This document shows positions 4,319 to 23,663 of a DNA stretch of 64,000 bases, piece by piece; positions within the stretch are counted from its first letter, which is position 1, and each line of letters begins with the position of its first letter. Both the position numbers and the translations under genes were made by a program. A model generated the notes under the pieces. The model saw only the letters and a program-made list of their open reading frames with translations, had not been told where the DNA came from and ran no database searches. Source of the DNA: Closterium sp. NIES-65 (taxonomy: Eukaryota > Streptophyta > Zygnematophyceae > Desmidiales > Closteriaceae); contig CANXME010002336.1 of the NCBI GenBank assembly GCA_948144175.1, positions 214,824 through 278,823 on the forward strand, in the 5' to 3' direction.

Positions 4319-7300
4319 CAATGGACGGGCTGGACCAACAGGCCTGTTGGTCCAATCTAACGGGTGGACCAACAGGCCTGTTGGTGTAATCGACCGTTAG
4401 GACCAACAGGCCTGTTGGTCCAATGGAGCGGTTGGACCAACTGGCCTCTTTGTCCAATGGTCCGGCTGGACCAGCTGGCCTGTTGGTCCAATGGATAGGT
4501 AGGACCAACAGGCTTGTTGGTCCATAGGACCGGTTGGACCAACTGGCCTGTTCGTGCAATAGACCGGTTGGACCAACACTGGCATGTTTGTCCAATGGAC
4601 CGGTTGGACAAACAGGCCTCTTGGTCCAATGGACCGGCTAGACCAACAGGCCTGATGGTCCAATGGACTGGCTGGACCAACAGGCCTGTTCGTCCAATGT
4701 ACCGTTAGGACCAACTGGCCTGTTGGTCCAATGGACCGGCTGGACAACCTGACCTCTTAGTCCAATGGACCGGCGGGACCAACAGGCATGTTGGTCCAAT
4801 GTACCGGTTGGACTAACAGGCCAGTTGGTCCAATGGACCGTTAGGACCAACAGGCCTGTTGGTCCAATGGAGCGATTGGACCAACTGGCCTCTTGGTCCA
4901 ATGGACCGGCTGGACCAGCTGGCCTGTTGTTCCAATGGATAGGTAGGACCAACAGGCTTCTTGGTCCATTGGACCGTTTGGACCAACTGGCCTGTTGATG
5001 CAATGGACCGGTTGGACCAACACTAGCATGTTTGTCCAATGAACCGGTTGGACAAACAGGCCTCTTGGTCCAATAGACCGGCTAGACCAACAGGCATGTT
5101 GGTCCAATGGACTAGCTGGACCAACAGGCCTGTTGGTCCAATGGACCGTTAGGACCAGCTGGCCTGTTGGTCTAATGGACCGGCTGGACAACCTGACCTC
5201 TTAGTTCAATAGACCGGCTGGACCAACTGGCCTATTCGTCCAATTGACAGGCTCGACCAACAGGCCTGTTGGTCCAATGGAGCGGTTGGACCAACTGGCC
5301 TCTTGGTCCAATGGACCGGCTGGACCAGCTGGCCTGTTGTTTCAATGGATAGGTAGGACCAACAGGCTTGTTGGTCCATTGGACCGGTTGGACCAACTGG
5401 CCTGTTGGTGCAATGGACCGATTGGACCAACACTGGCATGTTTGTCTAATGGACCAGTTGGACAAACAGGCCTCTTGGTCCAATGGACCGGCTAGACCAA
5501 CAGGCCTGTTGGTCCAATGGACTGGCTGGACCAACAGGCCTGTTGGTCCAATGGACCGTTAGGACCAACTGGCCTGTTGGTCCAATGGACCGGCTGGACA
5601 ACCTGACCTCTTAGTCCAATGGAGCGGTTGGACCAACAAGCCTCTTGGTCCAATGGACCGGCTGGACCAGCTGGCCTGTTGTTCCAATGGATAGGTAGGA
5701 CCAACACGCTTGTTGGTCCATTGGACCGGTTGGACCAACTAACCTATTGAAGCAATGGACCGGTTGGACCAACACTGGCATGTTTGTCCAATGGACCGGT
5801 TGGACAAACAGGACTCTTGGTCCAATAGAGTGACTAGACCAACAGGCCTGTTGGTCCAATGGACAAGCTTGACCAACATGCCTGTTGGTCCAATGGACCA
5901 TTAGGACCAACTGGCCTGTTGGTCCAATGGACCGGCTGGACAACCTGACCTCTTAGTCCAATGGACTGGCTGGACCAACTGGCCTCTTCGTCCAATGGAC
6001 CGGCTCGACCACCAGGCCTGTTGGTCCAATGGAGCGGTTGGACCAACTGGCCTCTTGGTCCAATGGACCGGATGGACCAGCTGGCCTGTTGTTCCAATGG
6101 ATAGGTAGGACCAACAGGCTTGTTGGTCCATTGGACCGGTTGGACCAACTGGCCTGTTGATGCAATGGACCGGTTGGACCAACACTGGCATGTTTGTCCA
6201 ATGAACCGGTTGGACAAACAGGCCTCTTGGTCCAATAGACCGGCTAGACCAACAGGCCTGTTGGTCCAATGGACTAGCTGGACCAACAGGCCTGTTGGTC
6301 CAATGGACCGTTAGGACCAGCTGGCCTGTTGGTCCAATGGACCGGCTGGACAACCTGACCTCTTAGTTCAATGGACTGGCTGGACCAACTGGCCTATTCG
6401 TCCAATTGACAGGCTCGACCAACAGGCCTGTTGGTCCAATGGAGCGGTTGGACCAACTGGCCTCTTGGTCCAATGGACCGGCTGGACCAGCTGGCCTGTT
6501 GTTTCAATGGATAGGTAGGACCAACAGGCTTGTTGGTCCGTTGGACCGGTTGGACCAACTGGCCTGTTGGTGCAATGGACCGATTGGACCAACCCTGACA
6601 TGTTTGTCTAATGGACCGGTTGGACAAACAGGCCTCTTGGTCCAATGGACCGGCTAGACCAACAGGCCTGTTGGTCCAATGGACTGGCTGGACCAACAGG
6701 CCTGTTGGTCCAATGGACCGTTAGGACCAACTGGCCTGTTGGTCCAATGGAGCGGTTGGACCAACAAGCCTCTTGGTCCAATGGACCGGCTGGACCAGTT
6801 GGCCTGTTGTTCCAATGGATAGGTAGGACCAACACGCTTGTTGGTCCATTGGACCGGTTGGACCAACACTGGCATGTTTGTCCAATGGACCGGTTGGACA
6901 AACAGGACTCTTGGTCCAATAGACTGACTAGACCAACAGGCCTGTTGGTCCAATGGACTGGCTTGACCAACATGCCTGTTGATCCAATGGACCATTAGGA
7001 CCAACTAGCCTGTTGGTCCAATGGACCGGCTGGACAACCAGACCTCTTAGTCCAATGGACTGGCAGGACCAACTGGCCTCTTCGTCCAATGGACCGGCTC
7101 GACCACCAGGCTTGTTGGTCCAATGGAGCGGTTGGACCAACTGGCCTCTTGGTCCAATGGACCGGCTGGACCAGCTTGCCTGTTATTCCAATGGATAGGT
7201 AGAACCAACAGGCTTGTTGGTGCAATGGACCGGTTGGACTAACACTGGCATGTTTGTCCAATGGACTAGCTGGACCAACAGGCCTGTTGGTCCAATGGAC

Positions 7301-10300
7301 CGTTAGGACCAACTAGCCTGTTGGTCCAATGGACCGGCTGGACAAGACCTCTTAGTCCAATGGACCGGCTGGACCAGCTGGCCTCTTCGTCCAATGGACC
7401 AGCTCGACCAACAGGCCTGTTGGTCCAATGTACCGGTTGGACCAACAGGCCTGTTGGTCGAGTGGACCGGCTGGACCAACAGGCCTATTGGTCCAATGGA
7501 GCGGTTGGACCAGCTTGCCTCTTGGTCCAATGGACCAGCTGGACCAGCTGGCCAGTTGGTCCATTGGATAGGTTGGACCAACTGACTTGTTGGTGCAATG
7601 GACCGGTTGGACCAACACTGGCATCTTCGTCCAATGAACCGGTTGGACCAAAAGGCCTGTTGGTCTAATGGACTGGCTAGACCAACTCGCCCTGTTGGTC
7701 CAATGGACTTGTTGGACCAACTGGCCTGTTGGTGCAATGGACCGGTTGAATTAACTGGCCTGTTGGTGCAATGGACCGGTTGGACCACCATTGGCGTGTT
7801 GGTGCAATGGACCGGTTGGACCAACAGGCCTATTGGTCCAATGGACCGGCTGGACCAAATGACATTTTGGTCCAATGGACCGGTTGGACCAACAGGCCTG
7901 CTGGTCCAATGGACCGTTAGGACCACCAGGCCTGTTGGTCCAATGGAGCGGTTGGACCAACTAGCCTCTTGGTCCAATGGACAGGCTGGACCAGCTGGTT
8001 TGCCGTTCCATTGGATAGGTAGGACCAACAGGCTTGTTGGTCCATTGGACCGGTTGGACCAACTAGCCTGTTGTCGCAATGGACCAGTTTGACCAATTCT
8101 GGCATGTTTGTCCTAATGGAACCGTTGGACAAACAGGCCTCTTGGTCCAATGGACCGGCTACTCCAACAAGCCTGTTGGTCTAATGGACTAGCTGGACCA
8201 ACAGGCCTGTTGGTCCAATGGACCGTTAGGACCAACTGGCCTGTTGGATTAATGGACCGGCTATACCACCTGACCTCTTGTTCCAATAGACCGGCTGGAC
8301 AACCTGGCCTCTTCGTCCAATAGACTGGCTAGACCAACAAGCCTGTTGGTCCAATGGACCAGTTGGACCGGCTAGACCAACAGGCCTATTGGTCCAATGG
8401 AGCGGTTGGACCAGCTGGCCTCTTGGTCCAATGGACCGGCTGGACCAGCTGGCCTGTTAGTCCATTGGATAGGTTGGACCAACTGGCCTGTTGGTGCAAT
8501 GGACTGGTTGGACCAACACTGGCATGTTGGTCCAGTGGACTTGTTGGACCAACAGGCCTATTGGTCCAATGGACCGGCTGGACCAATTGGCCTTTTGGTC
8601 CAATGGACCGGCTGGACCAACAGGCCTGTTGGTCCAATGGACCAATTGGACAAACAGGCCTCTTGAACCAATGGACCGGCTAGACCAACAGGCCTGTTGG
8701 TCCAATTGAGCTGTTGGACCAAATGGCCTCTTGGTCCAATGGACAGGCTAGACCAACAGGCCTGTTGATCCAATGGACCGGCAGGACCAACTAGCTTGTT
8801 GGTCCAATGGATAGGTAGGACCAACAGGCTTGTTGGTGCAATGGACCGGTTGGACCAACTAGCCTGTTGGTTCAATGGACCGGTTGGACCAACACTGGCA
8901 TGTTTATCCAATGGACCGGTTGGACAAACAGGCCTCTTGGTCCAATGGACCAGCAAGACCAACAGGCCTGTTGGTCCAATGGACTAGCTGGACCAACATT
9001 CCTGTTGGTCCAATGGACCGTTAGGACCAACTGGCCTGTTGGTCCAATGGACCGGCTTGACGAACTGGCCTCTTCGTCCAATGGACCGGCTCGACGAATA
9101 GGCCTGATGATGCAGTGGACCGGTTGGACCAACAGGCCTGTTGGTCGAATGGACCGGCTGGAGCAACTGGCCTATTTTTCCAATTGAGCGGTTGGACCAG
9201 CTTGCCTCTTGGTCCAATGGACCGGCTAGACCAGCTGGCCTGTTGGTCCATTGGATAGGTTGGACCGAACTGGCCTGTTGGTGCAATGGACCGGTTGGAC
9301 CAACACTGGCATGTTGGTCCAATGGACCGGTTGGACCAACAAGCCTGTTGGTCCAATGGACTGGCTGGACCAACTCGCCTGTTGGTCCAATGGACTTGTT
9401 GGACCAACTGGCCTTTTGGTGCAATGGACCGGTTGGACCACCATTGGCGTGTTGGTCCATGGACCCGTTGGACCAAAGGGCCTAATGGTCCAATGCACCG
9501 GCTGGACCAACTGACCATTTTGTCCAATGGACCGGTTGGACCAACAGGCCTGCTGGTCCAATGGACCGTTGGGACCAACAGGCCTGTTGGTCCTATGGAG
9601 CGGTTGGACCAACTGGCCTCTTGGTCCAATGGACAGGCTGGACCAGCTGGTTTGTGGTTCCATTGGATAGGTAGGACCAACAGGCTTGTTGGTCCATTGG
9701 ACCGGTTGGACCAACTAGCCTGTTGGTGCAATGGACCGGTTTGACCAACACTAGCATGTTTGTCCAATGGAACCGCTGAACAAACAGGCCTCTTGGTCCA
9801 ATGGACTGGCTGAACCAACAGGTCTGTTGGTCCAATGGACCGGCTGGACCAACTCGCGTGTTGGTCCAATGGACTTGTTGGACCAACGGGCCTATTGGTC
9901 CAATAGACCGGCAGGACTTATTGGCCTTTTGGTCCAATGGACCGTCTAGACCAACAGGCCTGTTGGTCCAATGGACCAATTGCACAAACAAGCCTTTTGG
10001 TCCAATGGACCGGCTAGACCAACAGGCCTGTTGGTCCAATGGAGCAGTTGGACCAACACTGGCATGTGGTCCAATGCACAGGCTGCACCGGTTGGTTTGT
10101 CGCTCCATTGGATAGGTTGGACCAGCATGCTTGTTGGTGCAATGGACCGGTAGGACCAACTGGCCTGTTGGTGCAATGGACTTGTTGGACCACCATTGGC
10201 GTGTTGGTCCAATGGACCGGTTGGACCAACGGGCCTATTGGTCCAATGGACCGGCTGGACCAACTGGCCTTTTGGTCCAATGGACCGGTTGGACCAACAG

Positions 10301-10807
10301 GCCTGCTGGTCCAATGGACCGTTAGGACCAACAAGCCTGTTGGTCCAATGGAGCGGTTGGACCAACTGGCCTCTTGGTCCAATGGACCGGCTGGACCATC
10401 TGGCCTGGTGGTCCATTGGACCGGTTGGACCAACTGGCCTGTTGGTGAAGTAGACAGGTTGGACCAGCTGGACCAACTCGCCTGCTGGTCAATGGACATG
10501 TTGGACCAACAGGCATGTTGGTTCAATGGACTAGCTGGACCAATTGGCCTCTTGGTCCAATGGACCGGCTGGACCAACTGGCCTGCTGGTCCTATGGACC
10601 GGTTGGACAAACAGGCCTGTTGGTCCAATGGCCGGCTACACCAACTGGCCTTTTGGTCTTTTGGATCGGTTGGACCAACAGGCCGGTTGGTCCAATGGAC
10701 CGGCTGGACCAACTAGTTTGTTGGTCCAATGGAGCGGTTGGACCAACAGGCCTCTTGGTCGAATGGACCGGCTGGACCAACTGGCCTGTTGGTCCATTGG
10801 ATTGGTT
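4319..10807. repeat. 34-bp palindromic satellite, array 1
   Basis: About 190 tandem copies of a 34-bp unit. The unit is a 13-bp half TTGGACCAACAGG, its exact reverse complement, then 8 bp (TGGACCGG), so 26 of 34 bp form a perfect palindrome centred on AGGCCT in the best units. This array mostly has the AGGCCT centre; array 2 mostly has TGGCCT. A longer 36-bp variant unit (marker CACTGGCATGTTTGTCC) recurs, giving a higher-order period of about 410 bp in the left half. The consensus contains no stop triplet on either strand, which produces long spurious open frames in all six frames. No gene is supported here. The left edge lies in a copia LTR; the right edge runs into a short unique stretch before a CT microsatellite. 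Confidence 0.95.
4493..6850. repeat. higher-order repeat inside array 1
   Basis: The marker GGATAGGTAGGACCAAC starts at 4493, 4937, 5347, 5689, 6099, 6509 and 6817. The gaps are 444, 410, 342, 410, 410 and 308 bp. Every one equals 34n + 36 (n = 12, 11, 9, 11, 11, 8), and each interval contains exactly one 36-bp variant unit lying about 80 bp after the marker. This shows amplification of multi-unit blocks with gain or loss of whole 34-bp units. Confidence 0.85.
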
Positions 10808-10874
10808 GTGTCGGAGAACGCCTCTCCTTCCTGCTGCTGTCCTCGTTCTTGCCGTCCGTCTTCTCCACCCGCCA

Positions 10875-10943: not shown

Positions 10944-11592
10944 CGGTCGTCCATTGATATAACATGCCGTACAACGAGTATAGTTATCACACAACAGAAA
11001 CAAACATGTGAGTGACTACCCATGCTCCCTAGCAGCCCCTATGCGGGGGCTCAAGTGTTGCAAAACAGTCCCCTGGGTTCAGCTTCCCCTTCGGTCCTCC
11101 TAAGGGGGGGTTTTCCGCCTGTGCTGCAAGGTTCAGCTTCATGAGGAAGCTAACCGCCTGTGCTCTTTGCAGGGCCACCGACCACCGCTGGCGGAATTGA
11201 TGAAGCATCTTAGCGGCCTGGTAGGTAGAGGGGTCCGCATTAAAGAGCTTCCTCGCTGCCGTGTCAGCTAGGAGCTTGAGGAAGGTCGGTACTTCCTCGC
11301 AGGGGCAGCTGTAGGTTTCTTCTGCTAAGGGGAAGAACCCTGCGAAGTCTGCCCTGCCATGGTAAAGCCCTATTTTCTTGTCTGCTTGCTTCCGCGCTGC
11401 CCAGCCCCTCCCCTTCCTTGCCCTCTCATCTCGTTTGCTTATGGGGTCTGTGATCGTTACGTCTGCCAGCCATACCGCCCCCGAGGTCCGATCCCGGAAG
11501 GCCAAATCGGCCTTCTTGTTATCCACCGGGCTGAAGGCAGTGCATTCCTTGTGTACCGCAAACCCGGCATCTTGTGCCATGTGCTTGCATCC

Positions 11593-11598
<6 letters not shown>
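10941..11598 (-). mobile_element. LINE 3' fragment (endonuclease-like C-terminus and 3' UTR)
   Basis: The minus-strand frame from about 11590 to 11029 encodes the last ~190 residues of the same LINE protein that ends at 19839. Shared blocks include MAQDAGF, the DVTITDPIS strand, RKGRGWAA, FPLAEETY, FLKLLADTAARK, and HQFRQRWSVALQRAQ. The ADLAF…DVTITD pair with downstream lysines (QADKK) looks like the PD-(D/E)xK core of a restriction-like endonuclease. The reverse transcriptase part is absent, so this is a severe 5' truncation, as is usual for LINEs. About 90 bp of 3' UTR follows before (GA)n. Confidence 0.8.
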
Positions 11599-11656
<58 letters not shown>

Positions 11657-11670
11657 CTCTCTCTCTCTCC
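11599..11670. repeat. (CT)n microsatellite
   Basis: About 72 bp of CT repeat with one CG interruption near 11653. It lies between the LINE fragment and the end of the gypsy polyprotein. Serine/leucine-rich or arginine/glutamate-rich open frames across it are artefacts. Confidence 0.95.
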
Positions 11671-11812
11671 CACCTTCCCTTCTCTGCCTTGCTCCGCCTT
11701 AATCACCCACTGCCCCCTCCTGTGCTCGGGCTCGAGCTGCTTGTGCTCGTGTCACAGGACATCCATGCTGAGGCTTACTTTCCTTCACCAGGGCGGTGTT
11801 GCTCTGGTGCTC

Positions 11813-12820
11813 CTTCAATTGTGCTCCCTTGTCGTTCTCCAACACCAGTATTGCTGAGGGCCGCATTTCCCTCACCCTCCATCTCTCTAACCCCACCCCG
11901 ACATCCAAGGTATCTTGCTTCGCCCGTTTCAGGTACACCTCTTGCCCCTGGCTCACCCCCTTCTTCACTCTGCCCCCCAACCCTTGCTGCTGCCGCTGCT
12001 CATATCGCCTGGCATCCCTTAGCTGTGCAGTGTGGAGGTTCTCCAGCGCTGCCGGCATCACCACCCGCAGGTACCTGGCCCTGGCTTCTGATAGTGCCAC
12101 CCAGTTGGGAATGGTGCCTGCTGTCACCGTGTCTGTGAGGACCTGCGGGGCTCTTACGGGCAGGACTGGTTCACAGCCGAACAGGAGGCTGTAAGGGGAG
12201 TGATCCTTCAAAGCCGCCTGCTTCCCAAATTTGTATCCCGCTGCCACCCAATCTAATTCATCATCCCAGTCCCGCTTCCTCTTCTCCCCATATGCCCTAA
12301 GCCCTCTCTTGAGAGTCTGAACCAGCCGCTCTGTCAATCCATCACTTTGTGGGTGATAGCGTGACGTGCGCCTGTGCGTAATCCCCACCTCGTCCAACAC
12401 CTTCTTGAACTCCCCCTGGAACTCTGTCCCCTGGTCGGTTAGCACCTCTGCGCATGCTCCAAATCTGCATACCACCTGCTTCTTGAACGCTGCTGCCACA
12501 TGCCTCGAGCTCTTGCTGGGGATAGCCCTCACTTCTAGCCACTTAATCACATGCTCCACCATCAGTACTATGTACTGCTTCCCTCCCCGGCTTAGCGGCA
12601 GCTCCCCGGCTAGATCTAGGGACCATCTAAAGCCCAGGCCTCGGATGGGCAGGGACTGCAGCTCGGCCCTCGCTTGGCTGAGGCTGGCCCTGCTGCGTTG
12701 ATATGCCTCGCAGCCCTCCACCCACTTCTGCACGTGTCTGCGCATCCCCTCCCACCACCATCCCGTCTTCAGTAGCTGCACCGTCCTTTCATGCCCGAAA
12801 TGTCCAAGCTTCATGTGCAC
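11813..12820 (-). pseudogene. gypsy integrase region
   Basis: Zinc-binding start (HMKLGHFGHERTVQLL, with a WVEGCEAY segment), then the catalytic core with its DDE-type landmarks: the LDLAGELPL strand, LTDQGTEFQGEF, and the YHPQSDGLTERLVQTLKRGL helix. The C-terminal tail includes VSQGQEVYLKRAK, a gypsy-type C-terminal fold, with no chromodomain that I can recognise. In the family this enzyme inserts the element into host DNA. Confidence 0.9.
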
Positions 12821-13102
12821 CTCCTTGATCACTGGTTCCCTCTCGGTCGGGGCTTGCACCAGCTTCCACCCTTCCTCCGTCTGTATCTGCAGCTGCTGCT
12901 GGTACCACCTGTAGTGGTGCCCCCTTGCTCTTACCCTCTCTGGCATCGCTTCATCCTCCCCTGTCTCCCCCTTGACCCACCGCATGGCCTGTTCATCCTC
13001 CCAGATATCTGCTGGCCCCTTGCTTCCCCTTCCCCCGTTCGTCTCTACCTGTCTGGCCAGCAGAGTCAATGCCACTGTCGGTTCCAGTGGTGGGGGGTTT
13101 CG

Positions 13103-13465
13103 GGAGAGCCCATCTACGTGCTGTAGGGTCTTCCCAGGCCTGTGTCGGATCTGAAAATCATATTCTTGTAGCTTCATTGCCCACCGCGCGTTCCTGCCCG
13201 TCAACCCTGGTGTCGTCATCAGCCATGTTAGGAGCTGGTGATCCGTCACCAAGGTGAATTCCCGGCCCTGCAAGTACACTCTGAAGTGCCCCACCGCCCA
13301 TACTACCACTAGCCCCTCCCCAATGTAGGAACTGTACTGCGCCTCCGCCGAATTGCAGCTTCTGCTCGTGTAGGCCACTACCTTCTTCTCTCCCTTCACC
13401 TCTTGGCAAAGTATCCCCCCAATCCCTTGGCTGCTCCAGTCAGTGTAGAGGGTGAAGGGCTGGTT
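13103..13465 (-). pseudogene. gypsy RNase H region
   Basis: Recognised from FTLYTDWSSQGIGGILCQE, the VAYTSRSCNSAEAQYSSYIGEGLVVVWAV run (given here in outline: VAYTSR, EAQYSS, EGLVVVWA), FTLVTDHQLLTWL and the VDGLSR closing motif typical of Ty3/gypsy RNase H. It follows RT directly, as in the family. Confidence 0.88.
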
Positions 13466-13717
13466 TGCAGCTGGCAGTTGCAGTACGGTGGCTGTCTTCA
13501 CTGCGGCCATCAAGTCCTGCAACGCCCCCTTCTGTGCTTCCCCCCACTCCCAGGCCCTGTCCTCCCTCAATAGCCCATTCAACGCTGCTGCTCGCTTGCT
13601 GAAGTTGGGTACAAACCGCCGATAGTAGCTCAGGAAGCCCAGCACTGCCCTGAGCCCCGACTTGTCCTTGGGCTCCCGCAGCCGGTCCAAGACCTCCACC
13701 TTTGCCTGCTGGATCCC

Positions 13718-14392
13718 AATCTGCCCCCCTTTCACCTTGTATCCCAGGTACTGCACCGTCTGCTCCCCCCACCTGCACTTCTTGGGGTGGCATGTAAGCC
13801 CTGCTGCCTCTAGCGCCGCCAGCGTCTTCCCCACATCTTGCAGGTGCTGCTGCTCAGTGGTGCTGAAGATCACCACATCATCTATGCAGCAGGCCGCGCA
13901 GTCTACATCTTGCAGCACCGCATCCATAACCCCCTGGAACACGGCTGACGCATTCCTCAATCCAAAAGACATGTACAGCCACTCTTACAGCCCATCGGGC
14001 CCATGGAACGCAGTCTTCTTTATGTCCTCCTCTCTGATTTTGATTTGATTGAACCCCTGCCGCAGGTCCAGCGTCGTGAAGAAGACCCCTTCTGCTAGCC
14101 TGTCAAAGATTTCTTCCGCCATCGGCATCGGGTACGTGTCGGCTATGGTAATCTTGTTGAGCGCTCTGTAGTTGCCACACATCCTCCTGCTCAGTACCTC
14201 CTCTGTCAGGTCCTTCCTTGCAGCCACCACTGTTGGCGTAGCATATTCAGATTCGGAGCGTCTAATCAGTCCTGCTTCCAGCAGCTCCTTAATCTTCTCT
14301 TTGCATATTTCCTCATCCCCGTGCGGCATCTTCCTCCTGCGATGAAACACCGGCTCCGTGCTATTCAGTTTCAGCTCCATCTCCTTCACCTT
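13718..14392 (-). pseudogene. gypsy reverse transcriptase region
   Basis: Fingers start with ELKLNSTEPVFHRRRKMP and KIKELLEAGLIRRSESEYATP, then the NYRALNKITIADTYPMP block, TTLDLRQGFNQIKI (first catalytic Asp), the MSFGLRNASAVFQ block and the IDDVVIFS catalytic strand, then QYLGYKV. All are standard Ty3/gypsy RT signatures. The RT is in the same open frame as the methyltransferase-like domain just upstream. Confidence 0.9.
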
Positions 14393-14629
14393 GCACCGTC
14401 CCAACTCCTGCAGCGTGAAGGCAAAGCACTTCCTGTGCTTGTGCAGCAGCTCCGGCATTGCCCCCCTTCCCTCTTTACTCAGCGCCTCTCCCACCGTCCA
14501 TTGTGGTCTCTCTTCCTCCCTGCATGCCCATGCTCCTTGTGGGACCGCTACCGCATCCGTTCCCTTGGCCTCATGCCCCCAGCTCAAGACCGTCTCCCTC
14601 CACATCCTTTGAACCAGCCACCTCATCAT

Positions 14630-15541
14630 ATGCCCATCCATGGCGTTCTCCAGTGCCCTCCTCCTCTCCTCTTCACTCACCCCTGGGGCTGCTGTCACGT
14701 TCTCCCCGTACCCCATGGCCAACTCTCTCTCTAACGCCGTCGGTTCCTCCCACCGCCCCTGTCTGTGATCATACACCAAACCTGGCCCCGGCTTTCCCCC
14801 ATCCCACTTGTAGCCGGCTGCCCCCACATACGACACCAAGGTGGGCAGGGCTCTCCTCTCTCGCCCCACCTGGTTGCACGGGCAGTGTGCCTGTCTCACT
14901 GGTGCAGGAGTCCGCCCTGGTTCCAAAATGTCCTGCACCCTTCTGTCCGCCGCTCTCTTCACCCCTTCCACCTCTTCTTGCAGTTGCAGCACCGTGGCGA
15001 CGTTCTGCCAATACATCCTGAGCCGATGTGCATAAGACCCCATCCTAGCTGCGTCACAGCTGACCCCCTTCCCCAACTGTTTGCTGATTCTCTCTCTCAC
15101 CAACCGGATCGGCTCGCGGCAATCTCCTTCCAAGTCCAGATTCTCTAGCAGGTACGCCACCCTTCCCTGCCTCTCTTGCAGCCACTCCAAAATGTGGAAC
15201 AGACTCTCCATCAGCTTCGTCCTCGAGTCTTCTCCTCCCTTCCCCTTTCTAGCCCATGACACCCCTTGACACTCCCATCCTGCTACCAGTAGATCCACTT
15301 GCCCCCAGCTGGCCACCTGCGCCTCTGTCACCTGGCTCACGTCATGGAGGGTGCTGCTCATGGCACCCTGAATCACCGCCGCGCTCAGGAGCTCTGGGAA
15401 CTCGGCCTGCAGCCTCCACGCATGATGCTCCGCCATCCTCCTCACCTCTGGCGCTCGCTCTACATAGATCCACTGCTGCACCACTATCCCATTCCGGACC
15501 ACCGCTGCCAGCCCTGCCCCAATTCCGCCGAACAGCTCCAC
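14630..15541 (-). pseudogene. cytosine-5 DNA methyltransferase-like domain inside gypsy polyprotein
   Basis: About 300 residues between protease and RT resemble a C5 DNA methyltransferase, the enzyme that puts a methyl group on cytosine using S-adenosylmethionine. With residue 1 at 15544: ELFGGIGAGL (3-12) matches motif I (cofactor binding). VDLLVAGWECQGVS (83-96), followed by SRTKL (107-111), sits where motif IV and its catalytic Cys-Gln belong. YLLENL (131-136) matches motif VI. AHRLRMYWQNV (172-182) matches motif VIII. ERELAMGYGENV and RALENAMDG (272-304) fit motifs IX and X. Motif order and spacing agree with the family. The domain shares one open frame with RT, so it is part of the element and not a neighbouring host gene. 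Whether it was catalytic is not shown. Confidence 0.66.
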
Positions 15542-15814
15542 CAAGCAAATGGGCTGCTGCCAGTTGCTCTGCTTCTATGGGGCGTCCATCAGCCTCATCC
15601 TAGGCCCCTCCTTGATCTCCTCTGCCCCCACCTGTTCCTCTCCCCCTGTCTGCTGCTTCCCCACATCCTCTTTTGCGCGGGCCTGGTATGCCCTTTTTGG
15701 CTCCACCCTAACAAATTGCACTGGCAGTTGCCCCAAGGGCCCCTCCTTCCAGTACCTCGTGCGGAATTCTACCTTCTCTGTCCAGGTGCAAATGCTCATG
15801 CCCACCGCAAACAC

Positions 15815-16132
15815 TATCTCCGTCCCTACCAACACATCAAAGTCTTCGAATTCTGAAATCCCGCATTTCATCCTGATCCGGGTTTCCTGCTCCCCTCCTG
15901 GCAGCAGGGTCAGCTCTATGGGTGTCCGTGTGCATGGCATCCACTTCGGCTCCCCCCCTTCTGCTGTCATCACCAATATGCCCTTTGCCACTTGCCTCTC
16001 CGGGGCCATCAGTCCTAGCCGTTCTGCCATTCCCTTGCCTAACATCACGCTCTGTGTCCCTGTATCAATGATGGCCGTCTTCACCTTCCTCCCTTCTACC
16101 TCCATTGCTCCTGCCCCCACTAGTAGCACCGA
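15815..16132 (-). pseudogene. gypsy aspartic protease region
   Basis: Retropepsin-like segment: KVKTAIIDTGTQSVMLGKGM carries the active-site DTG, followed by a hydrophobic FDVLVGTEIV strand in the expected position for the second half of the fold. In the family it cuts the polyprotein. The protease lies between the zinc knuckles and the methyltransferase-like domain. Confidence 0.8.
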
Positions 16133-16462
16133 CGTCTGACATGCCAGTCTCTCTTGCAGGTGGTGGGCAGGAGGATTCTCCTGCGCCATAGGGTCGGGCT
16201 GGTGTCCTCGTTCCCGCTTTTTCCTGCCGTGCTCCTGCCTGCCATCCCGTCCCCCGCTCCGCAGCCCCATCTCTTCTCTCCCCCTCCATGCCATCAGGGC
16301 ACACTGAGCATCCGGCTCCACCTCCTCCCCTTCATCATCCCTGGCGTACATTCCTGCCTCGGCCTCCCACCTAGGCCCCATGGCTTGCAGCTGAGACTGT
16401 AACCTGCTGATCTGCCTTTGCAGCTCCTCTGGATTCCTCCTCACTCCCCCTTCCTTCTGATA

Positions 16463-16600
16463 GCACTCCTTGGCATCATGCCCCCGCTTCCCACAGATCT
16501 CGCACCGAGCTGCATCAGGACATTCCCTCTTTCGGTGCCCCAGCTTCCCACAGCCATCACAAACCTTGCAGTCCCTACGGAGGTGCCCCACCTGCCCGCA
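16463..16600 (-). pseudogene. gag zinc-knuckle region
   Basis: Three CCHC-type knuckles in a row: CGQVGHLRRDC, CGKLGHRKREC and CEICGKRGHDAKEC. Such knuckles bind the element's RNA in the nucleocapsid. They are followed by a charged stretch with a coiled-coil-like run (ELQRQISRLQSQLQ) before the protease. Confidence 0.88.
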
Positions 16601-16689
16601 GCGGTGGCTTGTGTGGGTATGTGCCCGCATCTCCCCTCGCGGGTCCGCCCTCCCCTTCTCCTTGTTAGTCGCGAAACGCCTCACGGGAG

Positions 16690-17500
16690 GCTGACGCGGC
16701 CTTGACGGGGCCTGAACGGGCCCTTCACGCGATCCTGATGCGTCCTGATTTCGAAATCAGCTTCGCATGGCTTTCACGGGGCATTCACGGGCCCTACACT
16801 CGAGTGAAACAGATTCGGCCCTTCGCGGGGCTTTGACGGGAGTCTCGCGGCTGAAATTTCTATCACTGTTGCTTGCCTAAGCCTTCACAAAGGCTTCTCC
16901 GTAGGTTTGACGCGAATCTGACGGGAGTCTTACGATGTGTCACAAATTTCGACCAATCAGTGTGCAACACAATTTGAAGCGAGAGAATTTCCAAAAAGTG
17001 TCACTCCAACAAACTGGTACAACAAATATATAGGTTCAAGCAAGGTACACAAGTGAGCTAGGTAACCAAACGTGTTCAACACGTTACGCCTTGCCTCGTT
17101 TCATCCCGCGTCGCACACACAACCTTTTCCACCTTCGTCGAACGCGCCTGAAGTCCGCATTTGGTTCCTTGTTGAACACGCCACAGTTTACCCACTCATT
17201 TTCCCCCGTCAACCAATTTCTCCCTGGTTCTTCACTTCTCTTTTCACCCGTCAATAATCTTCTTCACTCCTTTCGTGTTTCTCTTGCCGTAGTTCCCAAG
17301 CAATGTCGAGCTTCCTCTCTGGTTCCCAAGGCACTTTCAACACGCCACTGTCAGTCCGTCGTAGTCGTCAGTCTGAATTATGAGCGCCGTCGTTAGTGTG
17401 GTTCCGCGAACCACTCCAACACTCCTCAGGTATCATGGCTGCCGCCCATGTTGGCCAGCGGCTTCTCTCTGTTGGCTTCGGGAGGTAGGCTTCATATTTC
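16690..17500. other. unexplained 0.8-kb spacer inside the gypsy element
   Basis: Between the gag core and the zinc knuckles lies about 0.8 kb without recognisable coding content. Its right part is A+T-richer than the flanks. The left part (16690-16860) is full of short repeats of the form ACGGG/TCACG (TTCACGGGGCATTCACGGG, TTGACGGGAGTC). It could be an insertion or a diverged gag segment. I saw no clear terminal repeats or target duplication at its edges. Confidence 0.5.
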
Positions 17501-17502
17501 TG

Positions 17503-19373
17503 CTACGCCAGCTCTACCTTCCCGGCCAACTCAAACACCTCCTCCAGAGCCGCCTCTGCCCCTAACTCGTCTCCCCTCATCCTCAGCCCCCCCCCCAATG
17601 CCTCGTCCAAGCCTCCCAGGAACTTGCTAATGAGCAGGCTGTTGTCCGCGCACTTCACGTCCTCTGCCACGTTGATCAACCTATTGTAGTAGGTCAGCAG
17701 GGACTCCGCCCGTCCCCTCCGGAACTCTTGGAACTCCCTTATCCGCTCCGCCGTATGCCCTGGGAACTGCCGCTGTAGCCGCTCCAGAAACGCCTCGGTG
17801 GGGTTCTCTCCATACTTCCCTGCCCTCCATAGCAATTCCTCCATCCGCATGCGGTACAGCGTTTCTGCCTCTCCCTCCAGCGTGTTGGGTAAACTCAGGA
17901 AAAAGTCTACGGGGTCTACATTGTGCCTATCCCAGCGGTACCGCAGATTCCCCACTTGCATCAAGTAGTTTTTGAGGGTCGGCCCCGCGCGTTGGTCTTC
18001 TGAGAACCTAGCGGGCACCTCCACACGAGGCGCGCTAGCAGCACCCCCCCGCCCCTCTCCCCACGATTCGCTATATCCACCCGGCCGACTGCTCCCCACC
18101 CCTCTCGCCCTTGCCTTCAACATGCCCTCTCTGGCCTCCCGTGCCCGCTCCGCACCGTACACCAGGCTCCCGCTCTCTGGCCGACTCCACTCCGCCGCAC
18201 GACACCCTTCCTTTGGCCCTCCCCACTCCTTCGTCCGAGCCCATTGCTGTGTCGGCGGGCCATACATCCTCCGCCCCTCTCCTCTGCTTGTCTCGCGGTG
18301 CCTACGTCTCTCTGGCGACGATGACCAGGCCTCCCCACGTCCACTGGGCTGTTGGCGGTGCTCAAGCGAGTGCCCGTCTTCTTCCTCCTTGCCCCTTCTC
18401 TGGCGGCGCCCCTCTGGCGAACGGGACCCGCTGTTGTCCCTCCTCCCTCCCTGCCTGGTCCGCTCCTGCCCGCGCGTCGCGCTGCCGCGCTCCACTGACA
18501 GCCTCCAGCGCTGCTCCTGCGGCCACTGCTCCGCCCGGTCTCTCCTCCCTGGGCGCCCATATGTCTCTGGAGCGCGCGGCTCATCCTCCCACCGATTCCT
18601 GCGTGCCTGCTGCCGCTCCAGCGGCTACCCGCCGTCGCCACTCCAATCTCCCCGCTCTCCCCATCGGTCATGCGCCCTGGAATCCCCTCCACGTCCGTCT
18701 CCACGCTGCTGCTCTCTTTCTGGCGCGTGGATCCGCTCCGCCCTTCCCGCGCCCCGCTGCCTTTGTCTCCGCGTCTCGCGCTCCCTCTCATCTTGGGCTA
18801 TCCGCTCCTGCTGAAGCGCGTCCTTGGCGCGCTGCTCTTCCCCACTGCTGGCCTCGCGGCCGTGCTATCCCTCCGCCTGGCTCGCGCCAATGTTCTCGTC
18901 CGCCTGTGCGTGTTCGGCGTGTTCCGCGTCATCGCCGTGCTCGTCGAATTCCGCGGCCCGGTCTTCGTCGTCATCTCCCTCCTTGGCGCTTTCGTCCTGC
19001 AGCCCCTGGCCCTCCTCGTCCGCTTCTGCGTCTAGCGCTCCCTCCACCACTGGCCCCGCGCCGTCCGGTGTGCCCTCCGTGCGGTCGTCGCCGCGGGCAT
19101 CTCCTTCTCGTTCCCGGGGAAATTCCCCGAAGCCCTGCCAACGGCCGCGGTCGTCACGGCGCCGTCCTCGCCCCTCTTGGGAGCGGAACCTCCCTTCCTC
19201 GCAGCGCCCGTCGCTGCTTCCTCTTGACGGTCACGGGCTAAGGGAACTCGATCTGCGCGGAAGGCCGGCCTACATGGCGATCGCTCTACCGATCGCCCTC
19301 GCTCGCGTGACGGCTCGCTTTGCGGCCGTTCTTCCTCGCGACGGCTAAACATCCTACCCCAAACGCAATTCAT
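17503..19373 (-). pseudogene. gypsy gag region
   Basis: The core (about 17530-18030) is a Retrotrans_gag-type capsid domain: LKNYLMQVGNLRYRW, FFLSLPNTLEGEAE, the AFLERLQRQFPG helix and FRRGRAESLLTYYNRLINV are typical. Upstream (18030-19373) is a long Arg/Ser/Gly-rich stretch and an acidic stretch (about 18865-19050, rich in Asp/Glu/Ala). I take these as the poorly conserved N-terminal part of gag, though their frame assignment is less certain. Confidence 0.75.
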
Positions 19374-19838
19374 ATTTATCCATACTTGCGCCGGTTCAGT
19401 CCTTAGGCTTGTTATGAAAGAGCTCCCTCCCTCAACCCATAGGTTCCTCTCTTAGTGACTGCCACGGTGTGCTAGAGCTTAGATGACAAGCTGCACATTT
19501 CCCAAATGTGCGGCTCGGGATTGGTGTTCCCTGATTTCACAATTCGCCCTTCCGTCCCTTTCCCCCGTGATTCCAACCGCTTCAATTCGGTTCCCCCCTA
19601 CTACACTCCTCTACAACAATCATATCGCTACATTCTACACACCTATGCTAGTATCATTGTATAAGCTTTCCTACACATATAGTCCTTATCTTAGCATCAT
19701 AACTACACCTGCATTCTACTGTTATAACATATGCAATGGTCCGTATATTGATAAGCCAGAAGGGTACACACATGCAATGAGAGACAGCAAGGTGCTAATA
19801 TGCAGGGTAGCCTAGACTATCCAACCCTTCTGTGCCAC
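19374..19838. other. gap between gypsy gag and LINE 3' end
   Basis: About 465 bp, A+T-richer than its surroundings. It should hold the gypsy 5' untranslated region or LTR and the LINE 3' UTR (minus strand, after the stop at 19839). I could not define an LTR edge, a primer-binding site, or a poly(A) tail. Confidence 0.5.
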
Positions 19839-21112
19839 CTAGAGCTCAAGAAGAGGCTCCAGGACAGTAAAACAGTCCCCAAGGTATAATTCCTGCCCTA
19901 TCCCTCCTACAGGTGGGTTCTCTGCAACAGCCGCCTCCCCTAACTTGATCATGAGACCCACAGATTGGGCCCTCTGCAGTGCAACCGACCACCTCTGCCT
20001 GAACTGGTGCAGGAACTTCGCGGCATGATAGGATTTGGAGTCGACGTTGAAGTATCGCCGAGCCGCCGTGTCTGCAAGGAGTTTCAGGAACACAGGGACC
20101 TCAGCACAAGGGCAGCCGTAGGTCTCCACTGCGAGGGGAAAGAAACCTACTGTCTCTGGCCAGTTTTCATAGTGCTTCATCTTTTTATCCGCCTGCTCCC
20201 GGGCTGCCCATCCCCTGCCTTTCCGTGCCTCCGGGTCCCTGGTGCTAATAGGATCTGTGACCGTGACATCACACACCCAAACCGCCCCACTACTTTTGTC
20301 TGTCATGGTAAAATCTGCCGTCTGCTCCTCTATGGGGCAGTAGACGTTTGTCTCCCTATGTACTATGAACCCCGCATCTTGCGCCATGCTGATACACGCG
20401 TTGCGGAGTTCGTTATGAGTATTCGTCCGGTGCTTCCCCGTGGCGCACCGGAAGAGGTGGTTGGGGAGGCGCGGGTCTGTGATAGCGATGTGTTCTGCAC
20501 AGTCACACTTCTTCGGAGTACAGAAAGGGAGGCCCAACCGGAAGCGCACGGCGTTGCTGAAGTGTACCGGGCCGATGCGACGTGAGGACGCTACCGGTAT
20601 CGCCGTCAGCCAGACCCTTGTGCCGTAGCCTGTGAGTGAGAACATTCCCTGTGTGTGCCCAGAGAGTGGATTCAGTCTCATTCGTCTCGTCTCTTGGACC
20701 TGTACCGCGTACCTACTCCCCTGTAATTTCAGGGCCAGAGTGTGCTGGAGCTTGATGTCCGACCGAGAGAGCCGCTCCTGGTAAACTACGTCGCGTGCGT
20801 CAGAGGGCAGGGCAGTCTCGCACTCTGTGAGCCAGAAGTGAAGCGGTGTGGTGACGTCCCGGGGCAGAATCATGTGGCCGTGTGCTCGGGTTAGTGCTGT
20901 GGCTGGTGCTAGCGTCAGGGAGGAAAAGAAGAGCGCGGCCTGTGTGAAGCTGGCTATGAAGCCGTAGACGCCTTCTACGAGTGGGTCCGTGATTCCTAGG
21001 CCGCCCAAGGATGATGGAAGCGAGGCCTGCGCCCACACTCTCAACTGCTCCGTGCTACAAGTAGGGACTCTAATCCCGCAGGATGTCAGGAGCGCGGCTA
21101 GGAGGTCTCTCT
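19839..21112 (-). pseudogene. LINE C-terminal zinc finger and restriction-like endonuclease region
   Basis: About 420 residues ending at 19839. It opens with RDLLAALLTSCGIRV and the SLPSSLGGLGI block seen after the thumb in many LINEs. A Cys/His cluster follows (with residue 1 at 21044: C180, C182, H196, C200, H205, H210; local text HLFRCATGKHRTNTHNELR). Then comes TADFTM (242-247) and VWVCDVTVTDP (255-265), with lysines at 287-288 (QADKKMK). This order, zinc cluster, HNELR, PD-like Asp, second Asp in DVTV, then Lys, matches the restriction-like endonuclease of R2-like LINEs, which nicks the target DNA. The first motif reads AD here rather than the usual PD. The extreme C-terminus (HQFRQRWSVALQRAQ) is conserved between both copies in the window. 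Confidence 0.7.
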
Positions 21113-21315
21113 GTCAGAATCCCAACCACTAGACCATTGGGATGAAAGGGCTTGTTTCAGTAGCGGGTCAGTGCGCCCATAACCCCCCAGGCGAACGCGC
21201 CTGTAACCCTCTCCAGGATCAATCGGGCATCCACAGTGCAGATCTACTGACACCCCCCCACACTGGGAGGTCCAGGACTAAGCACAGCGGCAACGGCCTA
21301 CATGTGCATACACCG

Positions 21316-21326
21316 GGACTCGAACC
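21316..21326 (-). promoter_or_regulatory. Pol III box B of the SINE head
   Basis: GGTTCGAGTCC on the minus strand is an exact match to the box B consensus (GGTTCGANTCC) and lies 33 bp after box A, within the spacing found in tRNA genes and SINEs. Confidence 0.75.
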
Positions 21327-21359
21327 CGAGACCGCTCTGATACCATGTCAGAATCCCAA

Positions 21360-21370
21360 CCACTAGACCA
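21360..21370 (-). promoter_or_regulatory. Pol III box A of the SINE head
   Basis: TGGTCTAGTGG on the minus strand fits the internal RNA polymerase III box A consensus. A second box A lies at 21126-21136 in the truncated next unit. Confidence 0.7.
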
Positions 21371-21489
21371 TTGGGATAAAAGGGCTTGTTTTAGTAGCGG
21401 GTCAGTGCGCCTATAACCCCCCAGGCGAACGCGCCTGTAACCCTCTCCAGGATCAATCGGGCATCCACAGTGCAGATCTACTGACACTC

Positions 21490-22995
21490 TCCCCCACTGT
21501 GCCCAGGTGTCTCGTGGTAGGAGGTTCAGTGGTGTAGTCCTAGTGAGGTATGCGACGCGTCTGGAAATGCAGCAGGTCAAGAGCAGGGAGGCTACTTGGG
21601 GGCCGGCACGTTATAAGAGCGGCAGCGGCTTCGCCATTTCCTCTAGCTGCCCCGCCAGGAATTTGGCCGCGCCCGCCGCTGGCCCCAGGAAGCTGCCTAG
21701 AAGGCGTATCCCGTCCTTGGAAAACGGGACCCCTGGTGGCAGCTGAATTGGATCGTCGCCCCTTGTGCTCCATGCCGCACATTTCTGTGGATTATGTTTA
21801 AGGCCCAGCTGCGCTAGCTTGCTTGTGAAGAAATTGAATGCTGCTACAGTGTCCGTGTCGTCCCCCAAAAATGTCACGTCGTCTGCATACGCCAAGCAAA
21901 GAACGTGGGGGTGTGCGTCCGCAGTTTCGCGAAGTGCTGGGTGAATCCCTGCTGCAAACAGTAGAGGGCCGAGTGGGTCCCCCTGCCTCACCCCGCGTTC
22001 GCTATTTAGCGGGTTGCTGGCGAAGTTCAAGTCGAGGTACAGCTTCGATGGGTTACCGTACGTTAGCCGCACCAGAGGGAGCAGTGACGAAAGGTTGTTG
22101 TCGCGTAACCCGTTGATGATTGCCTGTCGCGAAATGCTGTTAAAAGCGTTTGAGATGTCGGTCTGTAGCACCACGCAGCCGTCCCTCGAGTCGATGAAGG
22201 CACGTGCGACATGGATGTTTGCCTCTGCTCCCCCTGGTACCGCCACCCCGTACTGTAGTGGCAAGAAGTGGTCACGTGCAGCTTCTCCAATTGCGGTCAG
22301 AGCTGCCTTGGCCGCGAGGCGCGTCAGGCATTCGCCAATTGCAATTGGCCAAACCCCCCCACCTGGCTTGGACAGCGCAATTAGGCGTGAGGCTGTCAGC
22401 AGGTCTGCCACTGGCTCGGGTAATTTGCCTGTCAGGATAGTGTTGATCAAGGCATGCAGGTGGGTGCAGACCGATGCGTTGGTTGCAGATGCAGCGCGAA
22501 GGTGTTCGAAAGCGGTTCCGGACGGTCCAGTCCCCACCCCATTCTCGCACCGACCCAGAAGTTTGGAGAAATCGGCGTGGCTGATTTGGAGGTTCGGGCC
22601 AGGTGCTGTTGGCCAGCTCAGCTCCTCGTCGTCGGCTCGGGGGTGTTTTGCGCGAAGATTGCTAGGCCTGGCGTGCAGACTGGGGTTGACTCGAGGGCCA
22701 GCACGGCTCGCCGTAGACTTCCACGCTTGGCCAGGCCCTCTGCCCTGCTGAGTACTCCCGCCTCGTCTGGCTGGTGACGTGTTGGCGGTGGGGTATTGAT
22801 GGCTGCAATTCTGCCAGAGTACAGCTGCCCCCATTCGCCACGCTGGAAAGCTCTGAGACGGGCTTTGACTTCGGGCCACTTCGGTCTTCTAGGCGACGTT
22901 TGGCGAAGAGTGAGCCGAGGGAGAAACAGCAGCAGACGCCACCCTGCGACCGAGTCCGGATTTTGCGCGAGGTGAAGGAGCGGGGTGAGTAACAC
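21490..22995 (-). pseudogene. LINE pre-RT and reverse transcriptase region
   Basis: The pre-RT part (WPEVKARLRAFQRGEWGQLY, RAEGLAKRGSLRRAVLALES) is in one frame, and the polymerase follows in another from about 22665. Polymerase motifs are TGPSGTAFEHLRAA, LIALSKPGGGVWPIAIGE, LQTDISNAFNSIS (first catalytic Asp), GVRQGDPLGPLLFA and CLAYADDVTFLGD (catalytic YADD). These are LINE-type RT blocks; the GVRQGDPLGP motif excludes LTR-type RTs. The polymerase frame ends at 21611, and linker coding (TCCISRRVAYLTRTTPLN, LLPRDTWAQ) continues in another frame to the SINE at 21488. Confidence 0.85.
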
Positions 22996-23015: not shown

Positions 23016-23663
23016 AATTGGGCGGTGTTGCTCTGGTGCTCCTTCAACTGTGCTCCCTTGTCGTTCTCCAACACCAATATTCCTAAGGGCCGCACTTCCC
23101 TCACCCTCCATCTCTCTAACCCCACCCCGACATCCAAGGTATCTTGCTTCGCCCGTTTCAGGTACACTTCTTGCCCCTGGCTCACCCCCTTCTTCACTCT
23201 GCCCCCCAACCCTTGATTCTGTCGCTGCTCATATCGCCTGGCATCCCTCAGCTGTGTAGTGTGGAGGTTCTCCAGCGCTGCTGACATAACCACCCGCAGG
23301 TACCTGGCCCTGGCTTCTGAAAGTGCAACCCAGTTGGGAATGTTGCCTGCTTTCACCGTGTCTGTGAGGACCCGCGGGCTCCTACGAGCAAGACTGGTTC
23401 ACAGCCGAACAGGAGGCTGTAAGGCGAGTGATCCTTCAAAGCCGCCTGCTTCCCGAATCTGTATCTCGCTGCCACCCAATGTAATTCATCATCCCAGTCC
23501 CGCTTCCTCTTCTCCCCATATGCCCTAAGCCCTCTCTTGAGAGTATGAACCAGCTGCTCTGTCAATCCATCACTTTGTGGGTGATAGCGTGACGTGGGCC
23601 AGTGCATAATCCCCGCCTCGTCCAAAAGCTTCTTGAACTCCCCTTAGAACTCTGTCCCCTGGT
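23016..23663 (-). mobile_element. Ty3/gypsy fragment (integrase C-terminal part)
   Basis: This is near-identical over about 640 bp to 11792-12440 of the gypsy element, with only scattered differences by eye. It encodes the second half of the integrase (NIPNWVALSEARARYLRVVM, RVKKGVSQGQEVYLKRAK). One end abuts the 5' end of the LINE near 23016 and the other runs straight into satellite array 2 at 23661-23663, inside integrase sequence. It is a fragment only, of similar age to the larger copy. Confidence 0.88.

Follow-up and report, generated by a model that had tools for sequence, protein, structure and literature searches.

A large Ty3/gypsy family in Closterium sp. NIES-65 with a Dnmt3-like cytosine methyltransferase domain in Pol

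A Ty3/gypsy retrotransposon copy with a Dnmt3-like C5-cytosine methyltransferase domain between protease and RT was identified in the window, the whole 64,000-nucleotide stretch of Closterium sp. NIES-65 DNA analysed here. We consider it probable that this copy is a degenerate representative of a large, putatively self-priming family whose Pol gained and kept the methyltransferase, which would methylate the new cDNA or its insertion site. Parts of this reading are backed directly, namely the profile-based identification of the domain, its position in Pol, its retention in different subfamilies, the purifying selection acting on it, and the stop-free relatives with near-identical LTRs. By its domain content and repeat layout, the family belongs to an already published class, the KnitGypsy-Dnmt3 kind, found here in another host.

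The methyltransferase domain and its motifs

The minus-strand frame 13985-15574 was open over 529 aa, and within this one frame the methyltransferase stretch led into RT. Five motifs were read in it in the order I (ELFGGIGAGLA), IV (GWECQGVS), VI (LLENL), VIII (AHRLRMYW) and X (ALENAMDG), in agreement with an earlier note on this DNA that had reported these motifs in proper order and had proposed a C5 methyltransferase-like domain between protease and RT, in RT's own frame. The domain does lie where that note had put it (14630-15541), but its limits had to be corrected to about 14597-15574.

Taken by itself, the window protein scored under both curated cut-offs, with E = 7.8e-7 and 29.0 bits against TIGR00675 (cut-off 100.65) and E = 4.5e-4 and 20.2 bits against PF00145 (cut-off 22), the latter being the profile that the earlier note had suggested searching; its match to DNMT3B in the PDB had E = 1.7e-4. 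The domain of a relative, L010, matched DNMT3A at E = 1.2e-9 over residues 8-225, with a second, insignificant stretch at motif X. All six members of a family alignment matched PF00145 at E <= 1e-3 (best 5.9e-11), and a profile built from these six, compared with solved C5 methyltransferases, matched DNMT3A best (1.7e-13), with HhaI at ~1e-6 and DRM2 at ~4e-5. Although the window score was below cut-off, the significant matches of the relatives and of their profile identified the domain as a Dnmt3-like C5 methyltransferase and upheld the earlier assignment. The label "Dnmt3-like" stands for a ranking of profile matches among sequences. A single-sequence AlphaFold2 model of the window domain (pLDDT 36.9, pTM 0.23) was too poor for reading the fold.

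Motif IV is canonically Pro-Cys-Gln, and Pro-Cys-Asn in Dnmt3a, in the sections consulted of PMC4802922. A tblastn tally in the family, with no motif condition imposed and four places entered twice (leaving 45 distinct places), gave Trp-Glu-Cys at 49/49 loci, followed by Gln at 48/49. The Pro-Cys pair (PCN or PCQ) taken as characteristic of the Dnmt3 family was absent: the Cys was present at all 49 loci, each time preceded by Glu. Across 29 distinct stop-free copies no variation was seen in the motif IV Cys, the motif VI Glu-Asn or the first motif VIII Arg; the second Arg of motif VIII is Lys in L006. Glu at motif IV finds no mention in the consulted parts of the literature on such elements and enzymes (PMC5890265, PMC4802922), and the uniform Glu-Cys motif raises a concrete enzymological question. 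Fungal RID/Masc1 was considered as a Glu-Cys parallel and dropped, its odd triad being motif VI and its motif IV PCQ in the consulted part of PMC6709928.

The window copy (Table 1, where A stands for the LTR and B for the stretch preceding the 3′ LTR) is broken by in-frame stops at the protease/domain boundary and inside RT and by a frame break between 16756 and 17503. Its 5′ LTR has no stretch matching positions 266-334 of the C1954 LTR, its 3′ LTR is lost, and neither A2 nor B2 was found downstream, the upstream and downstream 9 kb sharing no LTR match. A near-identical 4.56 kb recurred at three other places, on C2048 with no difference, on C1652 with a 2-nt gap and on C747 with 15 substitutions; these places may go back to separate haplotypes or to segmental duplication.

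Table 1. Features of the element copy in the window
Feature	Position	Strand	Evidence
Eroded 5′ LTR (A1)	19415..19735	-	blastn to C1954 LTR: 22-265 at 19735-19492 (68%), 335-417 at 19496-19415 (75%)
5′ leader and gag-like start	18802..19390	-	two blastn stretches (71%, 63%) to C1954 sequence after the 5′ LTR
Gag-like frame, 373 aa	17503..18624	-	no Pfam family; by eye the start of the L005/L006 frames
Zinc knuckles and aspartic protease, stop at 15575-15577	15575..16756	-	zf-CCHC 3.3e-9; gag-asp_proteas 8.5e-5 (below cut-off)
Dnmt3-like C5-cytosine methyltransferase domain, 326 aa	14597..15574	-	profile and PDB matches, motifs
Linker and first part of RT, in the methyltransferase's frame, stop at 13985-13987	13985..14596	-	PDB: Ty3 RT 4.3e-14, RT/RNase H chain 8.4e-15; PF00078 3.3e-5
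Remaining RT, RNase H, integrase zinc-binding domain, integrase core	11699..13984	-	PF17917 1.6e-30, PF17919 4.6e-26, PF17921 5.6e-16, PF00078 2.8e-13, PF00665 4.2e-11
B1 repeat remnant	11645..11758	-	blastn, 74.6% to B of C1954

Other repeats surround this copy. A second fragment, from a closely related pol 3′ end, stands at window 23020-23666, in the same orientation and 94% identical to 11791-12438 over 648 nt. Positions 19839-22888 hold, by eye, a non-LTR retrotransposon with an RT (YADD) and a C-terminal endonuclease-like frame, an apparent fragment of a relative of which was seen, again by eye, at 11029-11751. A 34-nt tandem repeat flanks the elements at ~7300-10842 and 23630-23971, and the long frames there are an effect of the repeat.

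Family size, subfamilies and selection

The search covered the assembly to which the window belongs (874 Mb in 2400 contigs). The window protein gave 83 scored matches, the best of 9020 first-look candidates, and all 83 spanned from residue 1-10 to residue 518-519, indicating that each holds both the domain and RT; 64 of them were stop-free internally. When the L010 domain served as query, 121 places out of 1444 candidates were scored, a few of them partial. The two lists had, by eye, no place in common, so that the domain-bearing copies that the earlier note had proposed to count occupy at least 204 places, a number that probably includes duplicate haplotypes. That note had also named related gypsies without the domain at this position, and with clean insertion edges, as evidence that would tell against it; all 83 scored close relatives have the domain, and the domain-less gypsies are distant, with 3/3 of those read (from 150 RNase H matches listed) passing directly from protease to RT and being 37-44% identical in RT.

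The usual Ty3/gypsy Pol order of protease, RT, RNase H and integrase is present in the family, the methyltransferase being inserted between the first two. In L006, an open frame of 1523 aa, bounded by the locus ends only, encodes zinc knuckles, protease, methyltransferase, RT, RNase H and the integrase zinc-binding domain; both L005 and L006 are uninterrupted from the gag-like region on, where the window copy has its frame break. Across three subfamilies compared, the domain was 42-52% and the RT stretch 59-69% identical. The most economical account of this small sample is that the domain was gained once, in the common ancestor of the lineages that carry it. The LTR pairs were 99.5, 99.5 and 99.2% identical in the three copies read, suggesting that copies with those LTRs are young, and the occurrence of domain copies on contigs of up to several Mb (e.g. 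3.65 Mb) points to a place in the main genome. In a search for a viral or bacterial source, the patterns matched 28 stretches of viral_contigs and 75 of genome_contigs, no relative at E <= 1e-3 being among them; the patterns contained WECQ, so a Pro-Cys relative might escape the search.

Selection was analysed on 29 distinct stop-free domains forming 406 pairs; 46 of these were saturated, and a further 8 fell under dS 0.005. For the domain, median dN/dS came to 0.464 at dS 0.005-0.05 (32 pairs), 0.104 at 0.05-0.15 (15 pairs), 0.076 at 0.15-0.4 (18 pairs), 0.045 at 0.4-0.8 (4 pairs), 0.359 at 0.8-1.6 (78 pairs) and 0.116 above 1.6 (205 pairs). The window domain compared with L005-L008 showed dN 0.10 and dS 1.14-1.19, a dN/dS of ~0.09. 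For ten copies with both parts, bin medians ran from 0.000 to 0.115 for RT (21/45 pairs binned) and from 0.304 to 0.394 for the domain (41/45). These values indicate that purifying selection holds the domain, clearly more loosely than it holds RT.

The ratio of observed to expected CpG was 0.70 in window 11699-19617, 0.60 in window 24000-64000 and 0.55-0.91 in eight other copies. Transitions per 1000 sites, counted over 22 copies in four groups, amounted to 16.7 at CG, 14.3 at CHG, 8.7 at CHH and 11.4 at A/T; group B alone had 8.7 at CG versus 2.4-2.7, and in group A CHG was highest. No clear footprint of self-methylation was found in these counts, CpG being without clear depletion and CG and CHG transitions staying below twice those at CHH overall, so that the mutation patterns do not back strong self-methylation, the test being a weak one (small groups, majority polarisation).

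Element ends, repeats and possible self-priming

The relatives have LTRs ending in TG...CA and short target duplications, and by their sequences the family appears to integrate in two forms, a plain LTR form and one with split repeats, A1-coding-B1-A2-B2. The plain form was found on C1954, where a 4-bp repeat, ACGT, stands directly outside both LTRs and B2 is absent. On C1634 and C1678 the pre-LTR stretch recurs, identical in sequence, after the 3′ LTR (96 and 85 nt, respectively) and there constitutes B2, and the 4-bp repeats (TCTG and ACCA) stand outside the A1 start and the B2 end; the DIRS-like layout A, coding, B, A, B was thereby present in 2/3 copies read. Four of five further split copies had a perfect 4-bp repeat (GAGG, AAGG, AAAC, CCTA), and the fifth, on C1703, had CGAC (by eye) versus CGAT, which brings the duplication outside A1 start and B2 end to 6/7 split-repeat copies tested (loci L029-L034, L072-L081).

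In one subfamily (best 40 of 94 candidates scored), 17 of the 23 places with B matches had a pair of them, 454-468 nt apart. Another subfamily (best 40 of 90) had pairs 514-517 nt apart at nine places, together with 18 singles and, on C2053, a run of four. In both subfamilies, partners may stand outside the matches listed. At the B1-A2 junction the sequence is CCGACA-GC-TGTC, i.e. right end, GC, left end. The four B matches on C2053 (220907-225350) are spaced 1449-1450 nt apart, a possible tandem arrangement, as is a lone B match on C1923 (2163719) about 7.9 kb from a B pair.

Immediately after the 5′ LTR, 15, 23 and 15 nt complement an internal site of the same LTR (position 270-308) in the three copies analysed (L029, L031, L033). 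The complementary stretch differs in sequence between copies, and the 180-189 controls per copy reached at most 10 nt. This result suggests a possible Tf1-like self-priming on the element's own LTR. In self-priming Ty3/gypsy elements of the Tf1 type the primer site complements the 5′ end of the element's own RNA; the present family resembles them in the LTR-complementary stretch after its 5′ LTR and differs in the 15-23 nt length of the complement, its split A-B-A-B ends and its methyltransferase.

Published counterparts, proposed role and host context

Klebsormidium nitens, the charophyte alga that carries KnitGypsy-Dnmt3, has a genome of about 0.1 Gb, differing in this from the 874-Mb host here. 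In the parts consulted of de Mendoza et al. 2018 (PMC5890265), DNMTs are described in the Pol of a K. nitens LTR Gypsy element and of Symbiodinium DIRS and LINE elements, which bears out the earlier note's mention of a charophyte alga and dinoflagellates, and such gains by retrotransposons are presented as repeated; the case is also reviewed in PMC6338049, likewise consulted in part. By its published description, KnitGypsy-Dnmt3 resembles the family here as an intronless LTR Gypsy element with a Dnmt3-related DNMT in the Pol frame, purifying selection and a DIRS-like repeat layout (legend of Fig. 4, PMC5890265), but it has fewer copies in K. nitens than are found in Symbiodinium, whereas at least 204 scored places were found here. 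SymbioDIRS-Dnmt3 shares the Dnmt3-type domain in Pol with RT and the split repeats (PMC5890265); it uses a tyrosine recombinase, in contrast to the DDE-type integrase core and 4-bp target duplications found here. Like the Dnmt3/DRM de novo methyltransferases, the domain has DNMT3A as its best profile match and the motif order I to X, but it has Glu-Cys-Gln instead of Pro-Cys-Asn in motif IV, lacks regulatory domains and is part of a polyprotein. Among the open-licence papers listed by literature searches, none reported a DNMT-bearing gypsy element from another alga, and gypsy elements with a Dnmt3-like Pol enzyme extend, with this family, beyond the published alga. The Glu-Cys motif, the target duplications fixing the split-repeat ends and the self-complementary putative primer site are absent from the consulted parts of those accounts.

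In the reading that we consider probable, the element's own protease would cut Gag-Pol, and the methyltransferase would ride with RT inside the particle. There it would carry out SAM-dependent cytosine methylation of the new cDNA or the insertion site, presumably by means of the motif IV Cys, which is invariant, together with the motif VI Glu and the motif VIII Arg. Methylated new copies might then pass as host DNA, or escape an attack on unmethylated or cytosine-bearing DNA; for such elements it has been proposed that methylation makes new copies resemble host DNA or shields them (PMC5890265, in the part consulted). Minus-strand synthesis would begin by self-priming on the element's LTR sequence, and the integrated ends would be the A1 start and, usually, the B2 end.

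Several observations speak against this reading: Glu replaces Pro in motif IV, the domain evolves faster than RT, very close pairs have a dN/dS of 0.464, CpG is not clearly depleted, and the excess of CG and CHG transitions is modest. A rival reading is that the change at motif IV altered or abolished transfer and that the domain is kept for another purpose, assisting RT or integrase as a cofactor that binds nucleic acid or SAM. The uniformity of Trp-Glu-Cys (49/49 loci) and the lack of a clear self-methylation footprint agree with this, as does the role of the Pro carbonyl in M.HhaI, which keeps motif VI in place (PMC4802922, in the part consulted). KnitGypsy-Dnmt3, too, produced no methylation in yeast, a result its authors call inconclusive because DNMT3B failed as well (PMC5890265, same restriction). 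A published precedent on the side of methylation is that the SymbioDIRS-Dnmt3 domains methylate CG in yeast (PMC5890265, same restriction). However, mere binding would not need the catalytic Cys, Glu-Asn and Arg to be invariant in 29 distinct copies, and a backbone carbonyl should exist with any side chain; we regard a role other than C5 methylation as unlikely. It is improbable that the main substrate is not the element's cDNA but RNA or the DNA of the host or of competitors: RNA (for SymbioLINE) and antiviral defence have been suggested in the consulted literature (PMC5890265, PMC6338049), but these targets lack direct support in the genome here, and the position beside RT in Pol favours action in the particle.

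Whether the Dnmt3-like domain was gained independently of K. nitens, its likeness to KnitGypsy-Dnmt3 being convergence, is a separate matter. Such captures are recurrent (PMC5890265, in the part consulted) and the comparison with K. nitens rests on description, but superfamily, in-Pol domain and unusual repeat layout are all common to both, which makes an independent gain somewhat unlikely. That a single dead copy made a one-off capture, or resembles a methyltransferase by chance, can hardly be entertained: the window copy is indeed broken, but 83/83 scored close copies, 121 other scored places and significant profile matches refute it. A bolder reading, quite unlikely as it stands, is that this gypsy lineage fixed a methyltransferase whose catalytic motif was rebuilt from Pro-Cys to Trp-Glu-Cys and coupled it to an unusual replication cycle, with self-priming on the LTR, right and left ends joined in DIRS fashion at the B1-A2 junction, and insertion by a DDE integrase; within this cycle the methyltransferase would act on the cDNA or the priming duplex.

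This genome illustrates that families of the kind can reach high copy numbers, be in part young and fall into deep subfamilies. A DNMT1-RFD domain was found at two places of equal score in the host assembly, and the presence of stop-free copies, domain-less gypsies and a DNMT1-type gene in one genome makes the effect of retrotransposon-borne methylation on silencing directly testable. A genome search with PF00145 gave 123 scored matches of 901 candidates, and the ten loci inspected (L009-L018) all belonged, by eye, to the retroelement family, so that host DNMT exons may have been crowded out of the matches listed. Contig C19 carries 5.8S rDNA with LSU rDNA beside it, which, like the rbcL matches, indicates a green plant, probably a streptophyte alga. 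The rDNA of contigs C1262 and C1143 appears to be fungal, and the assembly seems to hold a contaminant. Full-length rbcL matches numbered 20, in both orientations and several per contig (C40, C75, C97, C162, C265, C824, C1848, C1961, C2174); these contigs are plastid-like DNA in an odd or repeated assembly.
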